Shown here: in pieces, positions 3,082 to 62,167 of the stretch
How positions within the stretch are numbered: the stretch's first letter is position 1
How the letters are laid out: each line of letters starts with the position of its first letter
Assembly: GCF_008017535.1 (NCBI RefSeq)
Contig: NZ_VRUA01000013.1
Location: 1 to 64,000 of the forward strand
Source: Ottowia flava
GTDB lineage: Bacteria; Pseudomonadota; Gammaproteobacteria; Burkholderiales; Burkholderiaceae_C
Direction: 5' to 3'
DNA length: 64,000 nucleotides
Made by a program: the position numbers and the translations under genes
Notes under the pieces: model-generated
What the model was told of the DNA's origin: nothing
Database searches by the model: none
What the model saw: only the letters and a program-made list of their open reading frames with translations

Positions 3082-3134
3082 GCTACTAATAAGGTAGCTG
3101 CTTGCGCAGGTGGCTGTACGGCTGCGGACGTATT
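3082..3134 (-). repeat. Dispersed ~54-bp repeat, copy R1
   Basis: Read on the minus strand it contains GTACAGCCACCTGCGCAAG followed by CAGCTACC, matching the core of the repeat family described under findings. It lies just after the TauE/SafE gene stop and before the end of the convergent TauE permease gene. Confidence 0.75.
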
Positions 3135-3151
3135 TTCTTCAAAGAATTGGC

Positions 3152-3976
3152 TCAGTTGCCCGCGGCGGTGACGCCCTTGTACAGCATGTAGATCGCCAGC
3201 ACGTACAGGATGCTGGCGAACACGCGCTTGAGCTTTTTCACCGGCAATGCGTGTGCTGCCTTGGCTCCCAGCGGCGCCATGAGCACGCTGCACGAGGCGA
3301 TCACCACCAATGCCGGTAGCCACAGGTAGCCGAATGAATAGGGCGGCAGGCCCTCGATGTGCTGGCCCGCGATGATGTAGCCCGCCACGTTGGCCACGGC
3401 AATCGGAAAGCCGAGCGCCGCGCTGGTGGCCACCGCGTTGTGGATGGCCACGTTGCACCAGGTCATGAACGGTACGCTGACAAAGCCGCCGCCCGCGCCG
3501 ACCAGGCCCGACAGAAAGCCGATCACCCCGCCCGCGCCCAGCAGGCCGGGCGTCCCGGGGATCTGGCGCGCGGCGGCGGGCTTCTTGTCCAAAAACATCT
3601 GTGTGGCTGAAAAGCCCACGAAGATGGCAAAAACGAAGGCCAGCACCGAGCCCTTGAGCACCGCAAACACGCCCAGGCTCGCCACCATCGCCCCCAGCAC
3701 GATGCCGGGCGCCAGCGCCTTTACGATGTCCCAGCGCACCGCACCGCGCTTGTGGTGCGCACGCACGCTGCTGATCGACGTGAAGATGATCGTCGCCATC
3801 GACGTCGCGATCGCCATCTTGACCGACAGCCCTGGCGCCACCCCGCGTGCCGCCAGAATGGCCGAGATGAACGGCACCATCATCATCCCACCGCCAATGC
3901 CCAGCAGGCCCGCCAGAAACCCTGTTGCGAGGCCGAGCAGGGCGAGTTCAATGATCAACAGGGGTTCGATGGGCAT
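3152..3976 (-). CDS. TauE/SafE family anion permease
   Basis: Inner-membrane transporter of the TSUP (TauE/SafE) family, 274 aa with about eight hydrophobic segments. The N-terminal motif GLLGIGGGMMMVPF and the repeated GLVGAGGGFVSVPF in the second half are the duplicated glycine-rich signature of the family, which exports or imports small sulfur-containing or organic anions. The ATG at 3976 was chosen because the membrane domain starts at once (MPIEPLLIIEL); the open frame runs 71 codons further upstream but that part is arginine-rich and not family-like. The gene is convergent to the hemN operon. Substrate unknown. Confidence 0.9.
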   Translation of the reverse strand: MPIEPLLIIELALLGLATGFLAGLLGIGGGMMMVPFISAILAARGVAPGLSVKMAIATSMATIIFTSISSVRAHHKRGAVRWDIVKALAPGIVLGAMVASLGVFAVLKGSVLAFVFAIFVGFSATQMFLDKKPAAARQIPGTPGLLGAGGVIGFLSGLVGAGGGFVSVPFMTWCNVAIHNAVATSAALGFPIAVANVAGYIIAGQHIEGLPPYSFGYLWLPALVVIASCSVLMAPLGAKAAHALPVKKLKRVFASILYVLAIYMLYKGVTAAGN

Positions 3977-4931
3977 GGTTGGCTGCGCGCAGGGGACGGA
4001 AAAGAAAGCCCGCTGGCAAGCGGGTGCGCCCCAGAGTCTAGGGGAATGCGGCGTGGTGCTTTTAGCTGGACCACGTCGTACGACGCCCCAGCAGACGCAT
4101 ACCGATGGAGCAGGGCGGCCAGGTTGCCGGATCAGAAGGCCGCGGAGCAGGCCATCCCAGCGAACGCCATGTGCGGACCTGCGCCGCACATCGGCGTTGT
4201 CCCCCCTCGCGCAGCAGAGGGGGGAAGGCGCGCAGCGCCATAGGGGGGTGTACCAAATAAGGTGTCTGCGAATGCCGCCGGACCGTCATCCTGAACGCAG
4301 GGGTTCAGGTGGGCGAGGTCAGTACTGGCCTTGGGTTCATCTGACGCGAGACGATCACGCTGACCAGACAATGTTCCAAGCCCGTGCTCGTATGAGCATT
4401 GGTTCAAGGAAATATAAAGCCCGGCGCGCACCGCAGACATCGCCATTTTAACCGCCGCTCCTTGCTTGCACGCCGACTGGAAACGGGGCGGTACTCTTCC
4501 CAATGAGCCTGTTCCCGACTCGGAAGCGTCCGGGTGATCACTTCAAACACCCTGCCTACAGTGGGCTCGTATTCGGCCGCCATGGCTACCCAAGTAGCCC
4601 AGATGAACATCTCGGGAACATCCACCGTAGCCGTTGCATTGCCGCCATTCGAGCGCGGGCCTGATCATGGGCTCACCGACGCGCTGGACCGGTGCCTGAC
4701 CAACGGCCAGCACGGACCCCCACCCAACGCGTTCGGGTTCGGGCCAAAACTGGGCGGACCGCCAACCGCTCCGGACGCCCAAACCGTTCCCACGACCACC
4801 GACGGCTTGTGAGCCACGACAAGGTGAAGGTCACGGACAACCGTCCCACTCTGAAGATGCTCGATCCCAACCCGGTCGACGTGTTCAATTTCCTCTGAAG
4901 CATCACTGAGCAGGCTCTCGGTCGCACCATG
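3977..4931. other. Gene-poor kilobase between TauE permease and zapA
   Basis: No recognisable protein or RNA gene in 955 bp. Short open frames on both strands (for example 4534-4812 plus) lack a convincing ribosome binding site, family resemblance or the strong GC3 bias of the neighbours. A GC-rich hairpin repeat lies at 4201-4250. I looked for 6S RNA, which often lies downstream of zapA in proteobacteria, and did not recognise it. The stretch could be a decayed gene or an unrecognised small RNA locus. Confidence 0.5.
4201..4250. repeat. GC-rich double-hairpin repeat
   Basis: A perfect 8-bp stem CCCCCCTC / GAGGGGGG (4201-4208 and 4217-4224) is followed by a second hairpin GGCGC-GCA-GCGCC (4227-4239) and a G-run. 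This looks like the short GC-rich palindromic elements scattered through Comamonadaceae genomes; that likeness is from memory and unchecked. A distantly similar GC-rich element sits inside cobQ near 24174. Confidence 0.6.
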
Positions 4932-4967
4932 AAAAAACCCCTGGATCGGTCCGATCCCGGGGCTTTT
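4932..4967 (-). terminator. Rho-independent terminator of the zapB-like/zapA operon
   Basis: A stem of CCCC, one mismatch and GGATCG pairs with CGATCC, one mismatch and GGGG around a 3-base loop (4938-4962). On the minus strand it is followed by six T (4932-4937), as expected for a terminator just after zapA. The plus side has only TTTT, so weak bidirectional action is possible. Confidence 0.85.
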
Positions 4968-4990
4968 CTTCGGCTGGGCGGCCAGAGCGG

Positions 4991-5344
4991 CTACAGCAGG
5001 CGCCCGTCGTCGCCCAGCGCCTTGTCCAGGCGCGTCAGCAGGGCGCCCAAGGTGGCCTGCTCGGCCACGCTCAGTGCCGGCGGCTGCGCCGCGGCAGGCT
5101 CGCCAGAAGGGGCAGCGGATGCGGCGCCTTCAGTCTCTGCAGCGCGGTCGTCGGTCAGTTCATACGCCATGTTCAGCGCCGCCAGCACGGCGATGCGGTC
5201 GCGCGCCTTGATCTTGCCGCCGTCCCGGATCTTGCACATCGCCGCATCTACGCGCTGCACGGCGGCCTGCAGCCGGCTTTCGCCACCTTCTGGTGCACCC
5301 AGCAGGTAGGCCTGGCCCATGATCTTGACTTCGATCTGCTTCAT
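4991..5344 (-). CDS. zapA: Cell division protein ZapA
   Basis: FtsZ-ring-associated protein that bundles FtsZ filaments at midcell. The 117-aa product has the ZapA beginning MKQIEVKIMG and the conserved block RDRIAVLAALNMAYEL at about residues 48-63, followed by a polar, alanine-rich tail and a C-terminal helix. It overlaps the upstream zapB-like gene by an ATGA-type junction, so the two are translationally coupled, and it is followed by a strong terminator. Confidence 0.93.
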   Translation of the reverse strand: MKQIEVKIMGQAYLLGAPEGGESRLQAAVQRVDAAMCKIRDGGKIKARDRIAVLAALNMAYELTDDRAAETEGAASAAPSGEPAAAQPPALSVAEQATLGALLTRLDKALGDDGRLL

Positions 5345-5595
5345 GCCGCGTCATCCTTGTGGCTGACCACGGCAGGCGAGCCCACGCGGCCAGCGGCTAC
5401 ATCCGGCAGGCGGTCGATCAGCGAGTCGACGCGCGCCCGGGCCGCCATCAGGCGCGATTTGAGGCTGTCGCGCTCCTGCGTGAGCGCCTGGACCTGCTGT
5501 GCCAGCAAATCGTTGGTCCGCTGCAGTTCTTCATGGCGCACGAGCAGTCGCTCGACGCGTTCGGCAATCTGTTCGATCAGGGGCGGGGTCGTCAT
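5341..5595 (-). CDS. ZapB-like coiled-coil cell division protein
   Basis: Small 84-aa cytoplasmic protein that is almost entirely predicted helical coiled coil (about residues 5-60: IAERVERLLVRHEELQRTNDLLAQQ and on). This fits the small TIGR02449/ZapB-like proteins found directly upstream of zapA in betaproteobacteria, thought to support the division ring. The ATG at 5595 was chosen because the coiled coil begins there; upstream codons in the frame are cysteine- and proline-rich and unlike the family. A TACAAT hexamer on the minus strand at 5631-5636 may be its -10 element. Confidence 0.8.
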   Translation of the reverse strand: MTTPPLIEQIAERVERLLVRHEELQRTNDLLAQQVQALTQERDSLKSRLMAARARVDSLIDRLPDVAAGRVGSPAVVSHKDDAA

Positions 5596-5674
5596 CTGTC
5601 TGGGCGCACACGGCTCGGGACAAGTGGGCCATTGTAGGCGGCCCATCTCCGGCGGCGACCCCCAGGCCTGCACT

Positions 5675-5680
5675 TACAAT
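5675..5680 (+). promoter_or_regulatory. Possible -10 element before the B12 riboswitch
   Basis: TACAAT at 5675-5680 lies 7 bp before the first base of riboswitch stem P1 at 5687, which is where transcription would be expected to begin. No good -35 hexamer is seen, so the promoter may be activator-dependent or weak. Confidence 0.5.
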
Positions 5681-5686
5681 CGCTTG

Positions 5687-5923
5687 CGTTGGTGCTCGCG
5701 TGCCGTGGTTCACACGGACGCAGTTCAACGGGAAGCAGGAGGGTCTGGGCGCAACACGCGCCATGCCTAACCTGCGCTGCCCCCGCAACGGTAAGCGGAC
5801 GGTGGCTGGCCGCGCCAGCCCACCGGCTTCAGCCTGACACCGCCACTGGCGTGCTGCCCTGCAGCACCGCCGGGAAGGCGAGGCATCAGAAGCGACCTCC
5901 GCCAGCCCGGATACCGGCCAACG
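5687..5923 (+). ncRNA. Cobalamin riboswitch controlling btuB and the B12 genes
   Basis: The B12 riboswitch core is clear: CTGCCCCCGCAACGGTAAG at 5777-5795, the B12-box segment GCCACTGG at 5842-5849 and GGGAAGGCG at 5872-5880. The outer stem P1 is CGTTGG (5687-5692) paired with CCAACG (5918-5923). AGGAGGG, a Shine-Dalgarno sequence, begins at the base after P1, so ligand-dependent folding could hide it. That suggests translational control of the short ORF at 5941 and, through coupling, of btuB. A palindrome followed by T5 at about 5954-5968 has too short a stem to call a terminator. Confidence 0.93.
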
Positions 5924-5940
5924 AGGAGGGAGCGTGCGCT

Positions 5941-6027
5941 ATGCAAAGCAGGCGGACGGGCCCGTTTTTGCCCCAGACGCCGGCGGGGAAGCTGGCAGGG
6001 GTCTGCTTCTGTTGCGTTTTTCCATGA
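5941..6027 (+). CDS. Putative 28-residue upstream ORF coupled to btuB
   Basis: An ATG at 5941 sits 10 bases after the AGGAGGG that ends the riboswitch and opens a 28-codon frame. Its TGA at 6025-6027 overlaps the btuB ATG at 6024 in an ATGA junction. btuB itself has no good ribosome binding site, so ribosomes ending this frame could reinitiate on btuB. The peptide has three cysteines near its end (VCFCC) and no recognised family. An alternative is that btuB starts at GTG 5934 in another frame, but that start is only 3 bases from the Shine-Dalgarno and adds 30 residues before a normal signal peptide. Confidence 0.5.
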   Translation: MQSRRTGPFLPQTPAGKLAGVCFCCVFP

Positions 6028-7883
6028 CCCACCGTTTGAACCGTTTCCGGCCCGTTTGGCTGCCGCTGGCCTTTTCCTGCGCGCTGCCCGCCGCCTGGGC
6101 CCAATCGCCTGGCACGTCTCGGCCCGAGTCAGTCACCGTGGCGCAGATCGATGCGCCTGCCTTGCCGGATACAGTGGTGACCGCCACACGTACCGCGCAG
6201 CCGCTGACCGATGTGCTGGCCGACGTGACACTGATCGACCGCCAGCAGGTTGAGCGCAGTGGCGCCGTCAACATCGCCGACCTGCTGCAGCGCCAGCCCG
6301 GACTGGAGCTGTCGCGCAACGGCGGCCCGGGCTCAACCACCAGCCTGTTCATGCGCGGGGCCGAGACCCGCTTCACCGCCGTTTACATTGATGGTGTGCG
6401 GGTGGATACCCAATCCACCGGGGGTGCGCCCTGGGAGTCGATCAGCCTGAACCAGGTCGAACGCATCGAAATCGTTCGTGGCCCCGCTGCGGCGGTGTAC
6501 GGCTCCGACGCCATGGCGGGCGTGATCCAAATCTTCACGCGCAAGGGCGATGGCCCTTTCACGCCCTACGTCGGCGCGGGCTTTGGCAACCAGGGCACGC
6601 GCAAGTTCGAGGCCGGCTTCAGCGGCCAAAGCGGCGCGGTCGACTATGCGCTGGGCGCTACCCACGCCCGCAGTGACGGTTTTGACAGCCGCCCCGGCAC
6701 CAATCCCGACCGCGACGGCTACCGCAGCAATGCGCTCACGGGGCGTGTTGGCGTCCAACTGAATGATGCGCAACGGCTGGAGGCCAGCGGCACCTACAGC
6801 CGCATGAAGGCGCAGTACGACGGCTACAAGCCCGGACTGGACGACCTGGGCGACAACCGCCTGGCCACCTTGGGTGCGGCTTGGTCGGCGCAGTGGACCA
6901 AGAGCTACAGCACGCGTTTCACCGTGACCGAATCGCGCCAGCGCTACGAAACCACGCCCGATCCCTACCGGACCGAAACCACGCTGCGCAACTACCTGTT
7001 CCAGAACGAATGGCGTTCGGGCGGCCACTTGGTCACGGCTGCGCTGGAGCGGCGCGAGGACCACCTGAAGAACGACCCGATCGACCAGGGCCGCCACCAG
7101 AACGCCATCGCGCTGGGCTACGGCTTCACGGGCGGCGCACATACCCTGCAGGTCAACCTGCGCCACGACCGTGACAGCGAATTCGGCGGCGAAAGTACCG
7201 GCGGCCTGGCCTACGGCTACAGCTTTGCGCCTGGCTGGCGTGTAACGGCGGCGGTCGGCACCGCCTTTCGCGTGCCCACGCTCTACCAGCGCTTCAGCAT
7301 GTACGGGCAGCCTGCGCTGCAGCCGGAAGAGGGACGCAACGTCGAGTTAGGCCTGCACTGGTCACAAGGCGCCAGCCGCTTTGCCGTGGTGGCCTACCGC
7401 AACAAGGTGCGCAACCTCATCACCTTTGGCGCGGCCGGGCCGTGCGGGTCGACCTTCGGATGCTACGAGAACACCGGCCGCGCGCGCCTGCAGGGCGTGA
7501 CCATCTCCGGTGCGCACAAGTTCGGTGGCCTCAACCTGTCGGCTTCGCTCGACCTGCAGGACCCCAAGGATGCCAACACGGGCAAGCAACTGGCCCGCCG
7601 CGCCAAGCAGCTGTTCAAGCTGAACGCCGACACCCGCGTGGGCGACTGGACGCTCGGCGCTGAATGGCTGGCGGCTGGCAAGCGCTGGGACAATGCGGCC
7701 AACACCAACAAGCTGGGTGGCTATGGCATCGTCAACCTCTACGCCTCGGCCACGCTGGCGCGCGAATGGACGCTGCTGGCGCGCATCGACAACATCGGCG
7801 ACCGCGACTACCAACTGGCGCGCGGCTACGCCACGGCGGGCCGCACCTTCTACCTGGGCGTGCGCTGGACGCCGCGCTTCTGA
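6024..7883 (+). CDS. btuB: TonB-dependent vitamin B12 outer-membrane receptor
   Basis: Outer-membrane beta-barrel that imports cobalamin with energy from TonB. The ATG at 6024 gives a signal peptide ending near ALPAAWAQ. The TonB box DTVVTATR follows at about residue 48, then the plug domain (for example VYIDGVRVD and VERIEIVRGPAAAVYGSDAMAGVIQI), then a barrel of about 480 residues ending in aromatic FYLGVRWTPRF, the usual C-terminal sorting signal. Length 619 aa is typical of BtuB. It lies just after the cobalamin riboswitch and heads the run of B12 genes, which supports B12 over iron or copper as substrate. Confidence 0.93.
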   Translation: MTHRLNRFRPVWLPLAFSCALPAAWAQSPGTSRPESVTVAQIDAPALPDTVVTATRTAQPLTDVLADVTLIDRQQVERSGAVNIADLLQRQPGLELSRNGGPGSTTSLFMRGAETRFTAVYIDGVRVDTQSTGGAPWESISLNQVERIEIVRGPAAAVYGSDAMAGVIQIFTRKGDGPFTPYVGAGFGNQGTRKFEAGFSGQSGAVDYALGATHARSDGFDSRPGTNPDRDGYRSNALTGRVGVQLNDAQRLEASGTYSRMKAQYDGYKPGLDDLGDNRLATLGAAWSAQWTKSYSTRFTVTESRQRYETTPDPYRTETTLRNYLFQNEWRSGGHLVTAALERREDHLKNDPIDQGRHQNAIALGYGFTGGAHTLQVNLRHDRDSEFGGESTGGLAYGYSFAPGWRVTAAVGTAFRVPTLYQRFSMYGQPALQPEEGRNVELGLHWSQGASRFAVVAYRNKVRNLITFGAAGPCGSTFGCYENTGRARLQGVTISGAHKFGGLNLSASLDLQDPKDANTGKQLARRAKQLFKLNADTRVGDWTLGAEWLAAGKRWDNAANTNKLGGYGIVNLYASATLAREWTLLARIDNIGDRDYQLARGYATAGRTFYLGVRWTPRF

Positions 7884-7907
7884 GTACGGGGGGCGAAAAT
7901 ACAAGTC

Positions 7908-7961
7908 AAATCGCCCTCCGGCCCTAGATGAATCTGCGAAGGCAGCTATGAAATTAATAGT
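7908..7961 (+). repeat. Dispersed ~54-bp repeat, copy R2
   Basis: Starts AAATCGCCCTCCGGCCCTA, then TCTGCG and GGCAGCTATGAAA, ending AATAG. One of the clearest intergenic copies; it fills most of the gap between btuB and cobU. Confidence 0.85.
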
Positions 7962-8039
7962 TCTGATGCCCCGCCGTGACGCCTTCGCCGCATCCGAGGC
8001 GGCGCCAACGGGCGCCTGCGCGGCTTGACGGTGGCGGAC

Positions 8040-8618
8040 ATGGCGCAGCGCGAATTCATTCTGGGCGGGCAAAAAAGCGGCAAGTCGCGCCGCGCCGAGC
8101 AGCTGGCGGCCGATTGGCTGGCGGCCGATGGCGCCCACCGCGCCGTGCTGATCGCCACCGCCCAGGCGCACGACGACGAGATGCGCGCCCGCATCCGGCG
8201 CCACCAGCAGGACCGGGCGGCGCGGGTGCCCGCCCTGCATACCGTGGAGGCGCCGCGCGAGTTGGCCGCGGCACTGGCGGAATGCTCCCGCGCCGATACC
8301 CTGGTGGTGGTCGACTGCCTGACGCTGTGGCTCACCCACTGGCTGATGCCGCATGCAGACACCGCTTCAGAGCAAAATACGGTCCTGGCGCACGGCTGGA
8401 CTGCGCAGGAAGCTCACTTTTTCGAAGCACTGGGCGCCGCGCCCGGGCCGGTGGTGCTGGTGGGCAACGAGATCGGCCTGGGCGTCATACCGCTCGGGCG
8501 CGAGGTGCGCGCCTTCGTCGACGCGCTGGGCGCGCTCAACCAGCGCGTGGCCGCTGCGTGTGACCGCGTGACGCTGATGGTGGCCGGCTGTCCGCTGGCC
8601 TTGAAAGGAAGTTTATGA
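8040..8618 (+). CDS. cobU: Adenosylcobinamide kinase / adenosylcobinamide-phosphate guanylyltransferase
   Basis: Bifunctional cytoplasmic enzyme that phosphorylates adenosylcobinamide and transfers GMP to give adenosyl-GDP-cobinamide in nucleotide-loop assembly. The P-loop GGQKSGKSRRAEQ is at the N-terminus, and VVDCLTLWLTHWL and GNEIGLGVIPLGREVRAFVDALG are typical CobU blocks. The ATG at 8040 is preceded by GGTGG; in-frame TTG 8025 and GTG 8031 are alternatives that add 3 to 5 residues. The stop overlaps the btuF ATG by four bases, so uptake and salvage genes are translationally linked. Confidence 0.93.
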   Translation: MAQREFILGGQKSGKSRRAEQLAADWLAADGAHRAVLIATAQAHDDEMRARIRRHQQDRAARVPALHTVEAPRELAAALAECSRADTLVVVDCLTLWLTHWLMPHADTASEQNTVLAHGWTAQEAHFFEALGAAPGPVVLVGNEIGLGVIPLGREVRAFVDALGALNQRVAAACDRVTLMVAGCPLALKGSL

Positions 8619-9496
8619 AGCGCTGGCTGTGCGCCTGGTGGCTGGTCTTGTGGGTCTGCGTGCCCGCCTGGGCCTACGACGTGACCGACGACACGGGCCG
8701 GACGGTGCAGTTCGACACCCCGCCGCTGCGCATCGTGTCGCTGCTGCCGTCGCTGACCGAAACCGTGTGCGAGTTGGGCGGCTGCGAGCGCCTGGTGGGC
8801 GTGGACCGCTATTCCAACTGGCCGGCGCCGGTCAAGAGACTGCCGCAGGTGGGCGGCGGCCTGGACCCGAACGTCGAGGCGGTGGTGGCGCTCAAGCCCG
8901 ATCTGGTGCTGGCGTCCGTCTCCACCCGCGCCGCCGATCGTCTGCGCAGCCTGGGCCTGCGCGTGCTGCAGATGGAGCCGCGCACCGGCGCGCAGGTGCG
9001 CGAGGTCACGCAGCGTCTGGGCACGGCCCTGCAACTGCCGACCGCCGACCGGGTGCTGCGCGCCATAGACTCCGGTGTGGACGCGGCGGCGCTGTCGGTG
9101 CCCCCCAGCCTGCGCGGCCAGCGCGTGTATTTCGAAGCCAGCGGCGGCCCGCACGCTGCAGGGCCTCAGTCGTTCATCGGCGAGATGCTCACGCGGCTGG
9201 GCCTGGGCAACATCATCGGGCCGGAGCTGGGGCCTTTTCCGCGCATCAACCCTGAACTGGTGGTGCGGGCCGATCCGGACCTGATCATGGTCGGCGCGCG
9301 CAGCGTGCGCGAGCTGACCGGACGGCCCGGCTGGGGCCAGCTGCGCGCGTTGCGCGAGCGCCGCATGTGCGTGTTCACGACGGAAGAAGTCGACATACTG
9401 GTGCGGCCTGGCCCGCGCATGGCCGAGGCGGCGCGCCTGATGGCGCGCTGCGCGGTGGAAAAGGGCCTGCGCGGCCAACGCGAGCCGGCGCGCTGA
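8615..9496 (+). CDS. btuF: Cobalamin-binding periplasmic protein BtuF
   Basis: Periplasmic substrate-binding protein that hands B12 to the BtuCD transporter. It has an N-terminal signal peptide (positively charged start, tryptophan/leucine-rich core, cleavage near VPAWA-YD) and the helical-backbone metal-receptor fold signature RIVSLLPSLTETVCELG at about residues 39-55. Length 293 aa suits the family. AAGGAAG precedes the ATG, which overlaps the cobU stop. Iron-siderophore-binding relatives share the fold, but position between cobU and btuC makes cobalamin the likely ligand. Confidence 0.9.
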   Translation: MKRWLCAWWLVLWVCVPAWAYDVTDDTGRTVQFDTPPLRIVSLLPSLTETVCELGGCERLVGVDRYSNWPAPVKRLPQVGGGLDPNVEAVVALKPDLVLASVSTRAADRLRSLGLRVLQMEPRTGAQVREVTQRLGTALQLPTADRVLRAIDSGVDAAALSVPPSLRGQRVYFEASGGPHAAGPQSFIGEMLTRLGLGNIIGPELGPFPRINPELVVRADPDLIMVGARSVRELTGRPGWGQLRALRERRMCVFTTEEVDILVRPGPRMAEAARLMARCAVEKGLRGQREPAR

Positions 9497-9536
9497 GCAT
9501 GCGCCGCTGTCCCTGCACGCTGGCCGGAGTGTCCAC

Positions 9537-10580
9537 ATGAGCCAGATGACCGCCAACGGTCTCGCCGTCGAGGGGCTGCACGCCCGCGGTGCGCGCCGCC
9601 GTTGGCTGGCACCGCTGCTGCTCGGCCTGTCAGCGCTGGTCATGGTGCTGGGCGCCAGTGTGGGCAGCACCGGCCTAGATGCGCTGTGGCAGGCTGTGCG
9701 CGACCCGGTGGCCTGGCAGATCGTGATGGACATCCGCCTGCCGCGCACGGTGGGCGCGTGGCTCACAGGGGCACTGCTCGGCCTGTCGGGCGCGGTGGCC
9801 CAGGGGTTGTTTCGCAACCCGCTGGCCGACCCTTTCCTGCTGGGCAGCGCTTCTGGCGCCGTGCTGGGGGTGGCGGTGCTGCTGGTGTTCTCCGGCACGC
9901 CGGTGGCTGCGGCCAGCTGGTGGCTCAAGCTGGGGCTGACCGGCGGGGCGTTCCTAGGTGCACTGGGCGGCGTGCTGCTGACCCTGTTGCTGGCCCAGGG
10001 CGTGCAGCACACGCTGCGCCTGCTGCTGGCGGGCGTGGTCGTGGGCTACGTACTGGGCGCGGTGAAGGACCTGGTGACGCTGAGCGCCCCCGATGTGCTG
10101 AGCAGCATGCTCGCCTTCGTGCTGGGCAACACCGGCCTGCTGGGCTGGTCCGCATGCGGCGTGCTGGCGCTGGTGCTGGTGCCGCTGCTGGTGCTGTCGG
10201 CGGCCACCGCGCGGGTGCTGGACGGCCTCAGCCTGGGCGAATCCACGGCCTTCAGCCTGGGGCTTCCGTTGACGCCGATGCGCGCCTTGCTGGTCGCCGT
10301 GCTCGCGCTGGGCACCGGCGCGGCGGTGGCGCAGGCGGGGCTGATCGGCTTTGTCGGGCTGGCCGCGCCGCACCTGGTGCGCGGGCTGTTGCGGGTGACG
10401 CACGGGCCGCTGCTGCTGCTGTCGGCCATCACCGGCGGGCTGCTGCTGTCGGTGGCCGACATCGCCGCGCGCGTGCTGATCGCGCCGCAGGAGCTGCCGG
10501 TCGGCGTGCTGACGGCGGTGCTGGGCGGCAGCTACCTGCTGTGGTTGATGTACCGGCGCACGCGCGGGGGCGGGGGATGA
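9537..10580 (+). CDS. btuC: Cobalamin ABC transporter permease BtuC
   Basis: FecCD-family inner-membrane permease of 347 aa with about ten hydrophobic segments. Family motifs include RLPRTVGAWLTGALLGLSGAVAQGLFRNPLADP at about residues 63-95 and the GFVGLAAPHLVR segment (about 265-276) that contacts the ATPase. It lies 40 bp after btuF and its stop overlaps the btuD ATG by four bases (10577-10580), the usual arrangement of a B12 importer operon. Confidence 0.94.
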   Translation: MSQMTANGLAVEGLHARGARRRWLAPLLLGLSALVMVLGASVGSTGLDALWQAVRDPVAWQIVMDIRLPRTVGAWLTGALLGLSGAVAQGLFRNPLADPFLLGSASGAVLGVAVLLVFSGTPVAAASWWLKLGLTGGAFLGALGGVLLTLLLAQGVQHTLRLLLAGVVVGYVLGAVKDLVTLSAPDVLSSMLAFVLGNTGLLGWSACGVLALVLVPLLVLSAATARVLDGLSLGESTAFSLGLPLTPMRALLVAVLALGTGAAVAQAGLIGFVGLAAPHLVRGLLRVTHGPLLLLSAITGGLLLSVADIAARVLIAPQELPVGVLTAVLGGSYLLWLMYRRTRGGGG

Positions 10581-53960: not shown

Positions 53961-53995
53961 AGAGTAAAAATCGCCCTCTTGGGCAGGAGTGAGAC

Positions 53996-54560: not shown

Positions 54561-57224
54561 ATGCAAGCGGTCAGCACCAACAGCCCATTGATCAAGCGCA
54601 GCAGACAGGAAGCCGTGTTCCTGGCTTCTTCGATGATCGACCGCTGCGTGGAAGCTGCCAGTGCTGCGCTGCACGAAGCCGAGCGCACGGCCAAATCGAT
54701 GGCCACCCGCATAGAGCTTGGGGACGCCGCTGCTGCGCTGACCAAGCAACGCGCCACGATGCGCACCGGTTACGCCGCCAGCGTGGATGACGCCATCGGC
54801 AAGGCGCTGAACGAAGCGCGCTCGCAGGCCGACGCGCACAAGCCCGAAAAGGGCGGCCGGATGCTTGAGGCCGACTCGTCGCTGGCCTTGTTGGACGACG
54901 CAGAAGTGGCGCGCTTCGTGGAGGCCTCGCGCCTGCAGCAGACCGCCATGCCGGTGGTCGAGCATGCGCTGGCACGCCTGGACTCGCTGATGAGCTCGGC
55001 CCTTGGTCTGCCCGTGGTGCGCGCCGACCTGAACCCTCTGCGCCCCGAAATCCTGTGCAACGCGCTGCTCGAGTTGCTGGGCTCATTCGGCGAATCGACC
55101 CAAATCCAGAGCCACTGGACGCGCGCGCTGGCGCGGCCATTTGCAGGCGAGTTGCAGCGGCTGTATGAAGCCATCGGAAAGTTGCTGGAGTCGCAGGGCG
55201 TCGAGGAAGCCCGCTATCGTCTGAAGCTGACCGAAGGGGGGAGCTTGCCGCCGCAGAAGTCCGGCACGGGTGGCTCCGGGACCGGAAACGCCAGTGGGAA
55301 TGGCTCCGGGTCCGCAGGCAGCGCGCCGGGTGGCGCGCCAGGCCAAGGAGTTCCTGCGACATCCGGCGATGGCGGTGCTTCTCGCCGTGCGCTGTTCCCC
55401 CACATGGGCGATCTGGCTCAGGCACGGCCAGCGGTTCCCCAAGCACTGATCCGAGACTTTCTGTACCGCCCGCAGTGGGTCTCCGAAAACGACGAGCCGC
55501 TGCCGCCGGCTTACTACGAAGCGGTGACCGCGCAACTGGCCGGGGCCATTCGTGCCAGCAGCCACGCGCCATCATTTGACGAAGCGGCACAGGCCCGTCA
55601 GCGTCTGCGCGACAAGGCGCTCAGTGTGGTCGACCGGCCAGCGCGTGCGGTCGACGTGGCCACGCCACTGCCACCCCAACAATGGGGTGAAGCTGCGCAG
55701 CCGGCGGCGCGCACGCGCACGCTGATGGAATTGAAGAGCCAGGCCACCAAGATCAGCCAGGCGCTGGGCCTAGACGCGGTGCGTACCCTGGTTTCCCAGG
55801 TGGCGGGTGACCATCGCGTGATGGCACCGGTGCGCGAGGCGTTCGTTGCCATGGAGCCGGCGCTGCTGCGCATGGCCATGAAGGACCCGCGCTTCTTTGG
55901 GGACGACCACCATCCGGCGCGGCGGCTGATTGAAGGTGTTGCACAGCGCAGCTTTAAGTACAACGACGAGTATGCGGATGAGTTCGAGCAATTCATGGCC
56001 CCGGTGCGCGACGCGGTGCGAGAACTCAATGACCGGCCCGAAGCGAGTAATTCGGCCTTCGGCGCCCAATTGGAGCAACTCGAAACGCGTTGGCAAGCCG
56101 AGGATGTGGTCGAGACGGACGCGCAGGAGGCCGGTCTGCGCTCCATGCATTTTGCGCAGGAGCGCCAGACGCTTGCTGACAAGGTCGCCTGGGAGTTCAG
56201 CCTGCGCTCCGACCTGGATCGCGTGCCGGTGGTTGTCGCCGATTTCCTGTTCCAGGACTGGTCGCTGGTGATTGCGCATGCCCAGTTGACCGACAAGCGT
56301 GGCCAGTTGGACCCAGGCGGCTATCTGGCGGTGGTGACCGACCTGCTGTGGAGCGTGAAGCGCGAAGCCGTGCTGAAGGAACCACGCCGGCTGTTCGAGG
56401 TGGTGCCGGGTGTGTTGCAGACGCTGCGCCGCGGGCTCGAGATGCTTGGCAAAGAGGCGCGCGAGACCGATACGTTCTTCAATGCGCTGATGCGGTATCA
56501 CGACCCGGTGTTGCGCTTGCGGCGTCTGCGCAGCGCGCGCGACGCCGAGGCATCGGGCCTGACAAGGCTGGACGACGACTCGAGTCTGCTCATGCCGCTG
56601 GACATGGAAACCGAAGCCCTGCCTTTGGAGCGCCCATCGCCCCGTGTGGCTGAGCAGCCCTGGTTGGGCAGGCACGAGCGAGTGGCAGCGGGCTTTGACG
56701 ATCATGGCTCGGGTATGGCGCCACTGGAGGCCGACGAAGGCATGACGTCCATGGCTTCGCTCGATAGCGGGCATCCGGCGGACGAGGTATCACGGTTTGC
56801 CGAGCCAGAGCCGGCACCTGCTGCGGTAGGTGATTTCGTCCCGCTCGACCAGCCCGAGCCGGCGTTGCTGGGCGCCCCGCGTATCAGTGATGCTGCGCAT
56901 GTGCCAGTTCCTGATGCGCCTCCGGATGACGCTGAACTGGCGCGCCAGCGCGCCATTCTTGAGCGTCTGCGCACTGGCGACTGGGTGGATTTGCGCGTGC
57001 GCGGTCAGTGGCGCCGTGCGCAGCTGAGCTGGAGCAGCGAAAACGGGTCGCTCTTCATGTTCGTCAGCCGTGGCGGGCGCCCGCACAGCATGACCCGGCG
57101 TACCTGCGAGAAGCTGATCCGCACACGCCACCTGCGACCCGTGGATGCGGCGGCCGTGGTCGACAAGGCGCTGCGCCGACTGTCCGACAGTCCCTCTGCG
57201 GAGCACGAGCACGTTACGGTCTGA
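54561..57224 (+). CDS. DUF1631 family protein
   Basis: An 887-aa cytoplasmic protein matching the DUF1631 family known from beta- and gammaproteobacteria. Mostly helical throughout; a glycine/serine-rich linker at about residues 235-275 (GTGGSGTGNASGNGSG) separates an N-terminal helical part from the core with LIRDFLYRPQWVSENDEPLP-like and DLLWSVKREAVLKEPRRLFEVVPGVLQTLRRGL blocks. The C-terminus (about 800-880) has GDWVDLRVRGQWRRAQLSW, like a small PilZ/SH3-type barrel. Function is not established; links to cyclic-di-GMP signalling have been suggested for relatives, which I cannot confirm here. Confidence 0.92.
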   Translation: MQAVSTNSPLIKRSRQEAVFLASSMIDRCVEAASAALHEAERTAKSMATRIELGDAAAALTKQRATMRTGYAASVDDAIGKALNEARSQADAHKPEKGGRMLEADSSLALLDDAEVARFVEASRLQQTAMPVVEHALARLDSLMSSALGLPVVRADLNPLRPEILCNALLELLGSFGESTQIQSHWTRALARPFAGELQRLYEAIGKLLESQGVEEARYRLKLTEGGSLPPQKSGTGGSGTGNASGNGSGSAGSAPGGAPGQGVPATSGDGGASRRALFPHMGDLAQARPAVPQALIRDFLYRPQWVSENDEPLPPAYYEAVTAQLAGAIRASSHAPSFDEAAQARQRLRDKALSVVDRPARAVDVATPLPPQQWGEAAQPAARTRTLMELKSQATKISQALGLDAVRTLVSQVAGDHRVMAPVREAFVAMEPALLRMAMKDPRFFGDDHHPARRLIEGVAQRSFKYNDEYADEFEQFMAPVRDAVRELNDRPEASNSAFGAQLEQLETRWQAEDVVETDAQEAGLRSMHFAQERQTLADKVAWEFSLRSDLDRVPVVVADFLFQDWSLVIAHAQLTDKRGQLDPGGYLAVVTDLLWSVKREAVLKEPRRLFEVVPGVLQTLRRGLEMLGKEARETDTFFNALMRYHDPVLRLRRLRSARDAEASGLTRLDDDSSLLMPLDMETEALPLERPSPRVAEQPWLGRHERVAAGFDDHGSGMAPLEADEGMTSMASLDSGHPADEVSRFAEPEPAPAAVGDFVPLDQPEPALLGAPRISDAAHVPVPDAPPDDAELARQRAILERLRTGDWVDLRVRGQWRRAQLSWSSENGSLFMFVSRGGRPHSMTRRTCEKLIRTRHLRPVDAAAVVDKALRRLSDSPSAEHEHVTV

Positions 57225-57353
57225 GGCGGTGCAGTTCCGCTGGCCGTCACACCGTGACCGCCGCCTCAGCTCTTGTCGGGGCAATGCCAAACGCCCTGGA
57301 CTGGCTCTGCCAGCAAGGAAGCACGCGATTTTGAAGTCAGGCGCCGAGAGGGC

Positions 57354-57405
57354 TTTTTTTACTCTTAAAAGAGTAGCTTGTTGCGGCGTATCGGCTTGGG
57401 CCGAG
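57354..57405 (-). repeat. Degenerate repeat remnant R18 with a perfect palindrome
   Basis: A T7 run is followed by TACTCTTAAAAGAGTA (57360-57375), a perfect palindrome, and then GTAGCTTGTTGCGGCG, a degraded match to the minus orientation of the dispersed repeat. It may also act as a weak terminator after the DUF1631 gene. Confidence 0.4.
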
Positions 57406-57459
57406 CGGTGATTTGATTCATATTTCGGGCGTCACTTTCGCAGCCGCTACCATGGACGC

Positions 57460-58161
57460 ATGAGCACACTGCCCGACACCATCGACATTGAAACCGGCGC
57501 CGATCCGCGCGCCAGCATCATCGTGCTGCACGGCCTGGGCGCCAGCGGGCACGACTTCGAGCCCTTCGCGCAAGAGATCGACCTCGCCGCCGTCGGCCCG
57601 GTGCGCTGGGTGTTTCCGCACGCGCCGCAGATTCCCGTGACGCTCAACGGCGGCTACGTGATGCCAGCCTGGTACGACATCCACACCGACTGGTCGCAGG
57701 AAGACGAAGCGGGCCTGCGCCGATCACAAGCGCTGGTCGACGGCCTACTGGCGCGCGAACAGGCGCGCGGCGTGCCAGCACGTCGCACCGTCCTGGCGGG
57801 CTTCTCGCAAGGCTGCGCGATGGCTTTGCTGACGGGCTTGCGCTATGGCCAGCGTCTGGCCGGCGTGGCGGGCATGTCCGGCTACCTGCCGCTGGCGCGC
57901 CAGCTGGCGACGGAGCGCAGCGCCGCCAATGCCGACGTACCGATCTGGCTGGCCCATGGCACGCAGGACGAGATGATCGCGCTGCCGCGCGCCGAGGCCT
58001 CGCGCGACGCCCTGCAGGTGCTGGGCTACGCCGTCGAATGGCACAGCTACCCCATGGGCCATTCGGTCTGCATGGAAGAGGTGGTCGACTTGCAGCGCTG
58101 GCTGCTGAAAGTGCTGGCGGCCGGAAGCCGAACCCGGGGCGCCGCTGCCGCCGCTGTCTGA
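57460..58161 (+). CDS. Carboxylesterase (alpha/beta hydrolase, phospholipase/carboxylesterase family)
   Basis: Cytoplasmic esterase of 233 aa related to YpfH/acyl-protein-thioesterase-type enzymes. IIVLHGLGASGHDFEP is the oxyanion region, the nucleophile serine is in GFSQGCAMAL (about residues 107-116), the aspartate in HGTQDEMI and the histidine in YPMGHSVCMEE. The catalytic triad is complete. Length suits the family. The ABC exporter gene follows after 37 bp. Confidence 0.93.
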   Translation: MSTLPDTIDIETGADPRASIIVLHGLGASGHDFEPFAQEIDLAAVGPVRWVFPHAPQIPVTLNGGYVMPAWYDIHTDWSQEDEAGLRRSQALVDGLLAREQARGVPARRTVLAGFSQGCAMALLTGLRYGQRLAGVAGMSGYLPLARQLATERSAANADVPIWLAHGTQDEMIALPRAEASRDALQVLGYAVEWHSYPMGHSVCMEEVVDLQRWLLKVLAAGSRTRGAAAAAV

Positions 58162-58198
58162 CAGACACGGCACGGGCGCTGGGCCATCATGCGGCCCC

Positions 58199-60034
58199 AT
58201 GCGCACGCTCTGGAAATACCTCAAACCCCAATCCCGCCTGGTCGCGTTGGCCCTGCTGCTGGCGGCGATCAGCCAGGTGCTGGCGCTGGTAGACCCGATC
58301 ATCTTCGGCAAGCTGATCGACGAGTACGCGACGAAGAAGGGCATACGGCCTGACGACGAGCTGGTGCGCGGCGCGTTGGGCCTGCTGGGCATTGCGGTTG
58401 CGGTGGCGCTGGGTTCGCGCGCGGCGCGGGCGCTGCAGGACTACGTCACGCGCATGGTCGTGCAGCGCTTTGGCACGCAGCTGTTCAACGACGGCCTGCG
58501 CCAGACCATGCGCCTGAACTTTCAGGAGTACGAGGACGCGCGTACCGGGGAAACCCTGGCGCTGCTGATGCGCCTGCGCACCGACACCGAGCGGCTGATC
58601 AACTCGATGATCAACGTGCTGTTCGCGTCCGTCATCGGCCTGGCGTTTCTGCTGTGGTACGCGGTGACCAAAAGCTGGTTGCTGGTGCCGGTATTCCTGA
58701 TCGGGCTGGTGGTGCTGGGCGGGCTCTCGGGGCTGCTCAGCCGGCAGATTCGCAGCCAGCAGCGCTCCATCAACCGCGAAACCACGCGCAACGCCGGCTT
58801 CATCACCGAATCGCTGCGCAACGTGGCGCTGATCAAGAGCCTGGGCCTCACCTTCCGCGAAGTGCGGCGCATGCACGCCAAGACCGAGGAGATCTTTGCG
58901 CTGGAGATGGCCAAGGTCAAACGCATCCGCTGGCTGAGCTTCTTGCAGGGCGCGACGCTCAGCCTGCTCAAGCTGTCGGTGCTGTTCGTGCTGCTGTGGT
59001 TGATTTTCCGCAACGTGCTGAGCACAGGCGAACTGATTGCCATGCAGTTCATCTCGGTCGCCATCCTCGGGCCGCTGCAGGAGTTGGGCACCATCATCCT
59101 CGCCTGGCGCGAAGCCAGCGCTTCACTGACCAATTACGACGAATTGATGGCCAAGCCGGTTGAGCGCCGCCCGTCCGACGCCGTGCCGTTGGGGCCGATT
59201 GAGACGCTGCGCTTCGACAACGTGGTGTTTCGCCACCGCGGTGCGACGGAAAACTCCATCGACGGCGTGAGTTTTTCAGCGAAGCTGGGCGACACGCTGG
59301 CTTTCGTCGGCCCGTCGGGTTCGGGCAAATCGACGCTGGTCAAGCTGTTGCTGGGGCTGTACCGGCCCGATGCCGGCGCCATCCTGTTCAACGACATCGA
59401 CGCGCGCCGCATTCGCTACAACGAGGCGCGGCGCCAGGTCGGATACGTGACGCAGGAGACTACGCTTTTCGCCGGCACGGTGCGTGAAAACCTGCTTTTC
59501 GTACGACCGGATGCCACCGACGCCGAAATGCAAGCCGCGCTGGCGCAGGCCCAGGCCGCTGGCCTGGTGGCGCGCCTGCCGCAGGGGCTGGAGACGATGA
59601 TTGGGGAGTCGGGCTACAAGCTGTCGGGCGGCGAGCGCCAGCGCCTGTCCATCGCGCGGGCGCTGCTGCGACAGCCCCGGCTGCTCATTTTTGACGAAGC
59701 GACGTCGGCGCTGGATTCGCTGACCGAGCAGCAGGTGACCGACACCGTGCGCGAGGTGTCGCGCGGCAGCCAGCAGATCGGCATCCTGATCGCGCACCGG
59801 TTATCGACCATCCTGCACGCCAGCGTCATCTACGTGCTGGAGCGCGGGCGCATCGTGGAGCAGGGCACGCACGACGCGCTGCTGGCGCACAAGGGCCTGT
59901 ACTACGCCATGTGGCGCCAGCAGATCGGTGAACGCGAAAGCGGCGCCATGCTGGAAGAGCGCCAGCGCAAGGCTGAAAAGGCGCAACTGCAGGAAGCGCA
60001 GGCAGCGTTGGGCGGGGCCGACCCGCTGCCATGA
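58199..60034 (+). CDS. ABC exporter, fused membrane and ATPase domains
   Basis: A 611-aa half-transporter. The N-terminal membrane domain (about residues 10-310) has six predicted segments; the ATPase domain has Walker A VGPSGSGKSTLVK near 375, signature [17 protein letters not shown] near 475, and Walker B LLIFDEATSALD, with the switch histidine in IAHRLSTI. This is the MsbA/type IV exporter arrangement and would work as a homodimer. Substrate not evident. A putative remnant of the repeat may lie just after the stop at about 60038-60060. Confidence 0.93.
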   Translation: MRTLWKYLKPQSRLVALALLLAAISQVLALVDPIIFGKLIDEYATKKGIRPDDELVRGALGLLGIAVAVALGSRAARALQDYVTRMVVQRFGTQLFNDGLRQTMRLNFQEYEDARTGETLALLMRLRTDTERLINSMINVLFASVIGLAFLLWYAVTKSWLLVPVFLIGLVVLGGLSGLLSRQIRSQQRSINRETTRNAGFITESLRNVALIKSLGLTFREVRRMHAKTEEIFALEMAKVKRIRWLSFLQGATLSLLKLSVLFVLLWLIFRNVLSTGELIAMQFISVAILGPLQELGTIILAWREASASLTNYDELMAKPVERRPSDAVPLGPIETLRFDNVVFRHRGATENSIDGVSFSAKLGDTLAFVGPSGSGKSTLVKLLLGLYRPDAGAILFNDIDARRIRYNEARRQVGYVTQETTLFAGTVRENLLFVRPDATDAEMQAALAQAQAAGLVARLPQGLETMIGESGYKLSGGERQRLSIARALLRQPRLLIFDEATSALDSLTEQQVTDTVREVSRGSQQIGILIAHRLSTILHASVIYVLERGRIVEQGTHDALLAHKGLYYAMWRQQIGERESGAMLEERQRKAEKAQLQEAQAALGGADPLP

Positions 60035-60053
60035 CCGCGGCTCGCGCGGGCAG

Positions 60054-61142
60054 TTAGTGCGCCGGCTTCACCGGTGCTTCACGCACCAGACGGAAGCCGA
60101 CCAGCACGTAGCGTGTGCTGGTGCTGTTCCAGTTGCGAAAGGCGGTGCGCGCATACAGCGGCCAGCTGTGCCAGGACCCGCCACGGCGCACCTTGACGTC
60201 GCCATCATCGGGGCCGGTGGGGTCGCTGGCTGGCGACTGGGCATAGTAGTCGTCCCCATACCAGTCGGAACACCACTCCCATACGTTGCCAATCATGTCG
60301 TACAGCCCCCAGGCGTTGGGCTGGAAGCTGCCAACCGGCGCGGTGAAGGCGAAGCCGTCGCTTCCCGAGCCAGCCTGTTCGCGCCACCGTGGCCAGCGCA
60401 GCGCGGTCTCGCTGTCGAAAGTGTTGGCGGTGCGCAGCACCTCCGCGGGATCGTCGCCCCCCTGGAACCGGGTGCGGGTGCCGGCGCGGGCCGCGTATTC
60501 CCATTCGGCTTCGGTCGGCAGGCGGTAGGTCACGCCTTCCTGCTGGCTCAGCCAGCGCGCCATGGCCACGGCGTCGTTCCAGCTGACGTTCACCACCGGA
60601 TGTTGGTCGGTCTGCGCAAAGCCCGGGTTTTCCCACGAGTACCGTGGGTCGCGCCCCTCGAACAGGTCGGCACGTTCGGTGTTGGGCGGGTTGTAGTCGG
60701 GGTTAAAGCCGTAGCCGCCGGTGCCGTCGCGCACCGATTCGGGCACGTAGCCCGATTGGCGCAAGAACTCGCGGAACTGGCCCACGGTGACCTCGTGGGT
60801 GCCCATCCAGAAATCGCGCGTGATGCGCACGCTATGCACCGGTGCCTCGTCCTTGAACTCGCCCAGGCGCTTGGCATCCGCGTGCGGGAAGGCCTTGGAC
60901 AGGGCCGAGGGAGATTCGTCGCTGCCCATCAGGAATTCGCCCGCCGGAATATGCGCGAACGCGATGCCGACGCGGTCGGTCGCGGTGCGCTGCGAAGGGG
61001 CAGCCTCAGGCGCGGCCGTTGGCGTTGATGTGCCACAGGCCGCCAGCAAGGTCGCGCTGAGCAGCGCAGCGGCCCAGGCACGACGGTGGGCAAGTTGGGT
61101 AGCGCGAGGTCGGCGCACGGAATCAGTGACGGTGGTCGGCAT
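60054..61142 (-). CDS. SUMF1-domain (formylglycine-generating-enzyme-like) lipoprotein
   Basis: A 362-aa protein with a lipoprotein signal (LLSATLLAACGTS) and a SUMF1/FGE-sulfatase domain: IPAGEFLMGSDESP, EVTVGQFREFLR, RLPTEAEWEYAARAGTRTRF, GNVWEWCSDWYGDDYY, VRRGGSWH and a C-terminal GFRLVRE. Active FGE has a catalytic cysteine in GFRC; here that position is leucine, so sulfatase activation by this protein is doubtful. Related domains in PvdO and NirV have other roles. As a lipoprotein it would face the periplasm. ATG 61142 is set by the signal peptide. Confidence 0.9.
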   Translation of the reverse strand: MPTTVTDSVRRPRATQLAHRRAWAAALLSATLLAACGTSTPTAAPEAAPSQRTATDRVGIAFAHIPAGEFLMGSDESPSALSKAFPHADAKRLGEFKDEAPVHSVRITRDFWMGTHEVTVGQFREFLRQSGYVPESVRDGTGGYGFNPDYNPPNTERADLFEGRDPRYSWENPGFAQTDQHPVVNVSWNDAVAMARWLSQQEGVTYRLPTEAEWEYAARAGTRTRFQGGDDPAEVLRTANTFDSETALRWPRWREQAGSGSDGFAFTAPVGSFQPNAWGLYDMIGNVWEWCSDWYGDDYYAQSPASDPTGPDDGDVKVRRGGSWHSWPLYARTAFRNWNSTSTRYVLVGFRLVREAPVKPAH

Positions 61143-61236
61143 AGCGGGCGATGCTCTCAGGGGCAAGGGTAGGGTGTCAACGCGTTCGTGCCTCCAGGTC
61201 ACGGGACAAGGCGCGCGCTGACCATGGTGCGCTTCA

Positions 61237-62112
61237 TCAGCTGGCGAGGAACAGCGCCGGGTCGACCGACGCGCGGTTGAGGGTGATGGTCCAGTGCAGG
61301 TGCGGGCCAGTCACGCGGCCGGTCGCGCCCACGTCGCCCACGCGGTCGCCCACGGCCAGGCGGTCGCCGTTCTTCACGCGGATGCGGCTCAGGTGGCACA
61401 TCATCGACAGCAGGCCGCCGCCGTGGTCCAGCCAGACGGTGTTGCCGTTGAAGAAGTAGTTGCCGGCGTCGATGACGGTGGCGGGCATGGGCGCGATGAC
61501 GGCGGTGCCGGTCGGCGCGGCAATGTCCATGCCACTGTGTGGGTTGCGCGGCTGGCCGTTGAAAAAGCGCCGCAGCCCGAACGAGCTGGAACGCCGTCCC
61601 GGCGTCGGTTGGCGCATCTGCAGCGGCACGGTGGGTGGCGCGCTCAGCGTGGCGATGACGCCTTGCTGGTGGGCGCGCTCGCGTTCGTGGCGCGCCAGGT
61701 CTTCGGGAGACAGATCCACCGTGCGCGGGGATACCTTCAGGTGTTGTTCGGTATAGCGCTTGGGCTCAATGGTGTAGGCGAGTTCGCGTTCGCGACCATC
61801 GGCGCTGCGCAGGCGGATGCGTCCCGTGCCGGGTTCAGCCGAGAGCGCGATGCCCACCAGCGCGGTCCATCCGGCGGGGCCGCCCAGCACCAGCACGGGA
61901 ACGTCGCCATTGAATGCGGCAGGGCGCTCGGGCGCGGCGCCCAAGGCGACATGCGCGACGCCGCCCGGCACGGCGGATTCGCGCGGCCAAGGTAAGTCGG
62001 TAGAAGCAGCCGGCTGCGCGACGGCCCAGCGCGGCGCCAGCGTCGCCAGACCCGGGACGAAGATCATGAGGCGACGGCTCAAGTGATGCGCGACAGGCTG
62101 TGGATCAGGCAT
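61237..62112 (-). CDS. M23-family (LytM) peptidoglycan peptidase
   Basis: Periplasmic zinc peptidase of 291 aa. A signal segment lies near residues 14-32 (MIFVPGLATLAPRWAVAQ). The catalytic domain has HSGMDIAAP (HxxxD) and GPHLHW (HxH), the complete LytM zinc site, so it should be active rather than an activator. N-terminal to it is a region with EPKRYTEQHLKVSPRTVDL, common in M23 proteins of this group. It follows the SUMF1 gene upstream on the same strand with a 94-bp gap. Confidence 0.93.
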   Translation of the reverse strand: MPDPQPVAHHLSRRLMIFVPGLATLAPRWAVAQPAASTDLPWPRESAVPGGVAHVALGAAPERPAAFNGDVPVLVLGGPAGWTALVGIALSAEPGTGRIRLRSADGRERELAYTIEPKRYTEQHLKVSPRTVDLSPEDLARHERERAHQQGVIATLSAPPTVPLQMRQPTPGRRSSSFGLRRFFNGQPRNPHSGMDIAAPTGTAVIAPMPATVIDAGNYFFNGNTVWLDHGGGLLSMMCHLSRIRVKNGDRLAVGDRVGDVGATGRVTGPHLHWTITLNRASVDPALFLAS

Positions 62113-62120
62113 GAAAAGTG

Positions 62121-62167
62121 AAGTTGACGCATGCCAGACCAGCGCAGGCAGCTACCAATAGTGTAGT
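62121..62167 (+). repeat. Dispersed repeat, copy R17
   Basis: AGCGCAGGCAGCTACCAATA followed by GTGTAG, with a degenerate left end. In the divergent gap between the M23 peptidase and hemerythrin genes. Confidence 0.7.

Follow-up and report, generated by a model that had tools for sequence, protein, structure and literature searches.

A bipartite ~67-bp motif dispersed through Ottowia flava and other Comamonadaceae: a candidate recognition code written by substitution, perhaps a DNA uptake sequence

The first 64 kb of an Ottowia flava contig (NZ_VRUA01000013.1, positions 1 to 64,000; 67% GC; hereafter 'the window') carry many copies of a dispersed element that, judged from its sequence, appears to be a ~67-bp double-stranded recognition motif and not a copied mobile sequence. 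The best single reading, to which we assign a probability of roughly 0.4, is by analogy that the motif works like a DNA uptake sequence (DUS) or uptake signal sequence (USS) – perhaps letting a DNA-reading system recognise the cell's own DNA. On balance we favour the broader view that the copies form a new kind of address code on the chromosome. In this view point substitutions have written a bipartite, double-stranded motif of 67 bp at an estimated 1,000 or more places per genome; the motif differs in dialect between species, is patchy across the whole family and is served by a putative Comamonadaceae reader, which would make it either the longest uptake signal by far or a long, sequence-specific architectural code spanning the genome.

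Matches to the core CTGCGCGRGCAGCTAY with up to three mismatches number 22 in the window, compared with a mean of 7.7 and a largest count of 16 over 100 shuffles. We built a weight matrix from the window, 400 kb of the O. flava contig C1 and 100 kb from each of two congeneric genomes, G146 and G015, using a single orientation per site, the element being nearly palindromic. At a threshold that left five copies in an equal-size order-3 Markov control, this matrix located 238 non-overlapping copies in 664 kb, 18 of them in the window (3078..62171), where the initial annotation had listed about 15 plus weaker remnants. That annotation had also proposed a profile scan of the rest of the genome. Across the O. 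flava assembly (4.12 Mb in 53 contigs), the core with up to two mismatches gave 759 matches against 87 for a reversed-pattern control, and a 26-bp pattern at the same tolerance gave 769 against 1; the family is real. Species-specific matrices found 161 copies in 464 kb sampled from O. flava and, from 300 kb of each congener, 104 (G146) and 112 (G015), a density of 0.35–0.37 per kb or about one copy every 3 kb, and extrapolation from the sampled 464 kb yields ~1,430 copies in the O. flava genome. The motif holds 44.6–51.0 bits of information (biased upward, as derived from detected copies), whereas 12.4–12.5 bits are required to locate that many sites. Such a content, roughly four times the requirement, speaks against a regulator site of the usual kind and in favour of drive, as with uptake sequences, or of several proteins reading the site together.

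Information spans about -36 to +30, counted from the C that opens CTGCGC, and drops to background levels beyond, which extends the 54 bp first given for this element to ~67 bp and leaves its description as a dispersed family intact. A rough consensus reads ATTTnGAGnCAAATCGGCCTCYAGCSCTAGAnCCAYCTGCGCRGGCAGCTAYnAAWTnnRTAGCAA. Other features described at the outset were borne out: the left AT block, the TAGCCCTA block, the right-hand GCTAY..RTAGC inverted repeat, both orientations, irregular spacing and two shared words (CTACAACCACCTGCGCAG at copies 47222 and 53938, AAACGATAGC at copies 24902 and 47222). The motif comprises a dyad of GC blocks centred about position -4, an inner inverted repeat GCTAY..RTAGC around an AT centre, and AT-rich tracts near -35, -25, +19 and +29 that, measured as AT fractions, form two pairs, each about one helical turn apart, flanking the dyad. 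AAA and TTT interchange within these tracts; TA steps are scarce in them, but are depleted in the flanks too. The outer parts are near-identical across the three congeners while the centre (-11..+8) differs, reading GCCCTA..CTGCGC in O. flava, GCGC..GCGC with a loose centre in G146 and GCGCTT..AAGCGC in G015; CGGC/GGGC forms occur among the matches of G020, which lies further away within the family. Within species, the dyad arms show no consistent covariation in O. flava, G146 or G015: three neighbouring stem pairs reach z of 2.4–3.7 in the G015 dialect without a counterpart in the other two species, and in O. flava 93 of 145 copies are mismatched (C.C) at -11/3. Given the lack of consistent covariation, the exchange of AAA for TTT, the C.C mismatch and the species dialects, we read the element as a double-stranded DNA motif, not a hairpin, that is kept by substitution.

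In O. flava no near-identical, recent copies stand out. Among O. flava copies above 25 bits (n = 145), pairwise identity averages 0.53 and the best pair is 0.79 identical, against a mean maximum of 0.77 in motif-simulated sequences; by this comparison the copies look like independent draws from the motif. The best pairs in G146 (0.94) and G015 (0.985) are closer, and highly similar pairs also exist among the flanks in these two genomes – larger duplications may be involved.

Coding sites allow the motif-bearing state to be compared with motif-free relatives. One O. flava copy sits in the coding sequence of an RsmB/F-family 16S rRNA methyltransferase. We scored relatives as having the motif above 20 bits and lacking it below 0 bits, with the rest between (cut-offs of our own choosing). 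For the RsmB-type gene, one protein query supplied the best 80 of 582 relatives, from an uneven sample of the family: 17 have the motif, 56 lack it and 7 fall between, all 56 motif-free relatives align without a gap, and 78 of the 80 remain gapless over a wider stretch. Acyl-CoA dehydrogenase gave a similar picture (58 aligned, 16 with the motif, 39 without, 38 of these 39 gapless), as did an MgsA-type AAA protein that we take to be RarA (44 aligned, 9 with the motif, 7 of them gapless, and 34 without, 29 of them gapless). In the signal-peptide region of LolA, 13 of 27 aligned sequences have the motif and 13 lack it, 3 of the latter being gapless and the others showing small indels. At none of these four sites is a motif-free relative missing 18 or more residues. 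A wider automatic test covered 72 open-frame copies with at least five aligned relatives each, many of them mutual orthologues and some in spurious frames; its 2,263 motif-free pairs divide into 1,812 that are gapless, 421 with small indels and 30 lacking at least 18 residues, these last lying outside the four named sites. On a tree of RsmB-type proteins, made by a quick method with the motif columns excluded, the motif (18 of 81 rows) requires 12 changes, at least 6 of them forced by starred branches, compared with 16.6 when labels are shuffled. At the level of alignment, these comparisons show copies being gained and lost where they stand, through substitution, both within conserved genes and between genes, the gapless-site evidence covering the coding copies. 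As for the target-site duplications and terminal inverted repeats expected of an inserted element, the coding sites hold no insertion to duplicate, and information ends near -36 and +30. Separately, a contig titled Akkermansia muciniphila (L102) groups with Limnohabitans by its RsmB-type protein and is probably a mislabelled or contaminated bin.

Of 150 genomes in the GTDB family, 25 are strongly motif-rich by a GCGC pattern; this label depends on that pattern and on cut-offs of our choosing, and misses forms with other centres, G020 being an example. Across the order (300 genomes), the long pattern matched 0–2 times in each of the 291 genomes from outside the family and at least 29 times in five of the nine within it. 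A search of 18 named genomes, in which reversed-pattern controls gave 0–12 matches, returned 457 in Polaromonas eurypsychrophila, 413 in Xenophilus aerolatus, 361 in Simplicispira metamorpha, 337 in Acidovorax facilis, 320 in A. defluvii, 120 in Paracidovorax anthurii, 80 in Comamonas terrae, 73 in C. testosteroni and 62 in Extensimonas, with 2–23 in Ramlibacter pallidus, Comamonas BIGb0124, two Limnohabitans, Brachymonas, X. azovorans, Comamonas BIGb0152, C. avium and Variovorax paradoxus. Within the genus assigned to A. defluvii, 41 of 47 genomes have at least 60 matches and 6 have 5–28. The distribution in Comamonadaceae is thus family-wide but patchy, with loss within genera, and the similar elements that the initial annotation mentioned for this family are indeed found in many of its members. 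We recognised no description of the motif in the open-licence literature searched, and the main text of a paper on GTAG repeats contains none of six Burkholderiales genus names. Two single exact 26-bp matches outside the family (G273:C44:7512-7537 and G365:C17:15913-15938) could reflect chance, transfer or contamination. Matches on viral contigs (78 stretches) were dropped as evidence of phage carriage: the stretches had been chosen by the motif itself, so motif density on them is uninformative on phages.

These findings bear on whether the element is, as initially suggested, a non-autonomous mobile element or a repetitive extragenic palindrome (REP) – a REP/REPIN or a miniature inverted-repeat transposable element (MITE) moved by a RAYT-type or other transposase, and by now ancient and degenerate. 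As the parts of the REP literature used here describe such elements, the likeness lies in a GTAG-like tag (on the reverse strand of our matrix, and presumably a REP feature), an imperfect palindrome, high copy number and a preference for extragenic DNA. The recommended check for RAYT-type transposases (PF01797) revealed a weak association, with matches in 23 of 25 motif-rich genomes and 89 of 125 others (Fisher p 0.04), and the lone O. flava Y1 transposase match has a degenerate copy near the gene's end. We nonetheless consider this origin unlikely. The motif differs from REP/REPIN in having no recent copies, coding-site insertion, RAYT tie or conserved hairpin: near-identical copies are absent from O. 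flava, coding sites are mostly gapless, RAYT is missing from 2 of the 25 carriers and common in non-carriers, and the hairpin is lost in the O. flava dialect through the C.C mismatch. On these grounds a mobile element was rejected at the coding sites, and RAYT was dropped as a required partner. The degenerate copy beside the Y1 transposase match (L001:2192-2207) may be there by chance at such a copy density. Y1 transposase matches, pieces included, number 20 in G015 and one each in O. flava and G146, perhaps owing to a recent IS200-like expansion in G015.

Marginally less likely is spread by overwriting, where the element in single-stranded form would anneal to sequences close to it and convert these, so that copies evolve in concert with nothing inserted. 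Appearance in place and concerted dialects would suit it; such conversion should also leave near-identical copies, matching even at weakly constrained positions such as -5 and 22, and O. flava has none beyond expectation.

Consistent with sites being long-lived, G146 has a syntenic copy for 17 of the 18 window copies and G015 for 10 of the 16 that project onto it, with one of the other six ambiguous and five having none. All 27 matched copies share orientation. Among non-coding pairs, identity at informative columns is 0.78 with G146 (10 pairs) and 0.72 with G015 (5 pairs), compared with 0.37 and 0.36 at uninformative columns and 0.32 and 0.28 in ungapped flanks. Since non-orthologous copies already reach 0.68 at informative columns and the pairs were picked by motif score, the agreement in position and orientation is the stronger evidence. 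The window copies are as follows.

3078..3145, minus strand, 63 bits: between convergent genes; both congeners have a copy here in the same orientation
7898..7965, plus strand, 70 bits: intergenic; copy in G146, no projection in G015
8365..8432, plus strand, 42 bits: inside the cobU coding sequence; copies in both congeners, the element gapless against both, with a 6-nt gap in G015 just outside it
10585..10652, minus strand, 38 bits: between tandem genes; of the two congeners, only G146 has a copy
13679..13746, plus strand, 29 bits: congener copies stronger (44 and 59 bits)
17928..17995, plus strand, 24 bits: weakest candidate; no copy in the G146 region, ambiguous in G015; may be a chance match
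24866..24933, plus strand, 65 bits: in a CobB/CobQ-like gene, where it falls in the linker that joins the CbiA and GATase_3 domains; of the two congeners, only G146 has a copy
29564..29631, plus strand, 43 bits: inside cobS; gapless with both congeners; G146 copy of 34 bits, none in G015
29935..30002, minus strand, 52 bits: antisense within a histidine-phosphatase gene; gapless, and both congeners have a copy
31679..31746, plus strand, 72 bits: between tandem genes; G146 copy of 38 bits, none in G015
40142..40209, minus strand, 55 bits: between tandem genes; of the two congeners, only G146 has a copy
42495..42562, plus strand, 58 bits: antisense within mutS, in domain III; gapless, and both congeners have a copy
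47191..47258, minus strand, 65 bits: between convergent genes; G146 has a copy, and the site does not project onto G015
50463..50530, plus strand, 39 bits: inside a called gene without a Pfam match; copies in both congeners
51263..51330, plus strand, 69 bits: where the gene that holds 50463..50530 is called to end; copies in both congeners
53902..53969, plus strand, 57 bits: between tandem genes; copies in both congeners, flanking alignment poor
57357..57424, minus strand, 46 bits: between tandem genes; both congeners have a copy
62104..62171, plus strand, 48 bits: between divergent genes; copies in both congeners

Using genes called by a simple script of our own, without reference annotation, we found 81 of the 238 copies in the three genomes to lie inside genes, a class that the initial annotation had missed; across species the hosts include mutS, rsmB and rarA. 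Of the intergenic copies, tandem regions hold 91, convergent ones 50 and divergent ones 16; regions of at least 70 bp number 192, 65 and 79, respectively (one region may hold several copies). The greater number in convergent regions, together with the hairpin-capable centre and three stem pairs of the G015 dialect, would fit an RNA-level element – a terminator, an mRNA stabiliser or a small RNA family. Copies in tandem regions are, however, oriented both ways relative to the flanking genes (49 same, 42 opposite), others lie inside coding sequence on either strand, the remaining two species show no covariation, and Rfam has no match at the window copies at its gathering threshold. We therefore regard a role in RNA as the least probable account considered here, and of the two signals first entertained, a structured RNA whose copies fold alike and a DNA signal, it is the second that gains support.

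The spacing of copies raises a different possibility. On O. flava C1, 4% of neighbours are less than 300 bp apart compared with 10% for random placement, and the coefficient of variation of spacing is 0.82 compared with 0.85–1.16. Sparse close neighbours, the dyad with its phased AT tracts and no consistent covariation, the persistence of sites between congeners and the surplus of convergent over divergent copies would all fit an architectural or segregation site, one or two sequence-specific nucleoid proteins binding or wrapping the 67 bp at intervals of about 3 kb. The inner palindrome, GCTAY-NN-AWW-NN-RTAGC, looks like a possible site for a helix-turn-helix dimer that reads the AT centre indirectly. 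We hold this tentative account to be nearly as likely as uptake. Against it, an ordinary binding site rarely carries about four times the information required, the patchy losses inside genera would mean that a chromosome organiser had been lost, and no candidate protein was found. On the complete chromosome G072, moreover, the 55 exact matches show neither regional trend nor strand polarity, being uniform and unpolarised (KS p 0.98, polarity p 0.81). Among the matches listed for some complete genomes, all or most were on the plus strand; we attribute this to the way in which matches were listed, and replichore polarity was set aside once the complete G072 list proved unpolarised.

If the motif is instead a DUS/USS-like signal, a factor of the type IV pilus or competence machinery would bind it, motif-bearing DNA would be imported preferentially, and recombination of imported self DNA would enrich near-matches in the genome by molecular drive. 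Uptake with drive would account for the copy number, the surplus information, the scarcity in divergent (promoter) regions and the dialects confined to the centre. The uniform, unpolarised matches on G072 count in its favour too, as does the finding that all 25 motif-rich genomes of the family have a ComEC match while the six of 150 without one are not motif-rich. Uptake sequences originate in place, and extended USS have a GC core with tolerant phased AT tracts. Like the DUS of Neisseriaceae and the USS of Pasteurellaceae, the motif occurs in hundreds to thousands of copies on both strands, in coding and intergenic DNA, with an origin by substitution and lineage dialects; the DUS dialects described in the parts of PMC3630211 consulted parallel its species dialects. 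Selective transformation has also been reported within the family. In Verminephrobacter eiseniae, a member of Comamonadaceae, DNA uptake depends on type IV pili and is apparently selective, while excess foreign DNA reduces transformation only slightly, and Acidovorax temperans is transformed by same-species DNA only, according to the parts of that paper examined (Davidson et al. 2014, PMC4212676). The terms 'motif' and 'repeat' were not found in its main text, and the parts examined name no signal. It is the combination of the motif's properties with this published selectivity that makes a DUS/USS-like role the best single reading.

Several points weigh against uptake. Transformation by same-species DNA only can equally reflect limits on recombination. 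The short core of about 9–12 bp typical of known uptake signals is absent, the motif being conserved over ~67 bp with 45–51 bits and belonging to a different bacterial family; we know of no 67-bp uptake signal. Well inside strong genes lie 45 of 161 O. flava copies, and gene-internal copies are more frequent in known uptake-sequence genomes. A V. eiseniae plasmid has no copy above 12 bits in its 31 kb. No receptor was found, and competence loss does not visibly explain motif loss, since ComEC is near-universal (144 of 150 in the family) and PilM is present in all 20 Acidovorax-group genomes tested, 6 motif-poor ones included. A GspH pilin match, enriched post hoc in motif-rich genomes (12 of 14 against 1 of 6), was rejected as a partner: in the three loci examined it is the GspH of a type II secretion operon, going by gene names that we assume for that operon. 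In G003, which bears the motif in relatively few copies, ComEC appears as three adjoining matches (G003:C1:1836740-1837544).

Two other repeat systems offer partial parallels. HIP1 of cyanobacteria is likewise a very abundant motif of unclear function, in the portions of its literature drawn on here, and has spread through genes without transposition; it is, however, an 8 bp word (GCGATCGC) linked to DNA methyltransferases, whereas the Comamonadaceae motif is long, bipartite and degenerate. Rickettsia palindromic elements are gene-internal too, but entered the open frames of protein-coding genes as in-frame insertions, whereas the coding sites described above show no insertion.

An abundant repeat of a common environmental family would, on this evidence, be a recognition code that alters conserved protein sequences and not selfish mobile DNA. 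If its role is in uptake, it could be the sequence on which the reported selectivity of transformation in Verminephrobacter and Acidovorax depends, and may account for gene-exchange barriers within the family; as an architectural site it would be unusually information-rich for one that organises chromosomes. The dialects provide natural controls for direct tests of either role.

The window holds two further features. A cobalamin riboswitch (Rfam RF00174, 63 bits) lies at 5673-5936, in a region with the cobalamin genes cobU, cobS and the CobB/CobQ-like gene. A second dispersed repeat of ~115 bp at 4130-4252, which may be a copied element, has dozens of matches of ~70–88% identity on both strands in the two congeners, and 13 further BLAST matches in ~1.06 Mb sampled.

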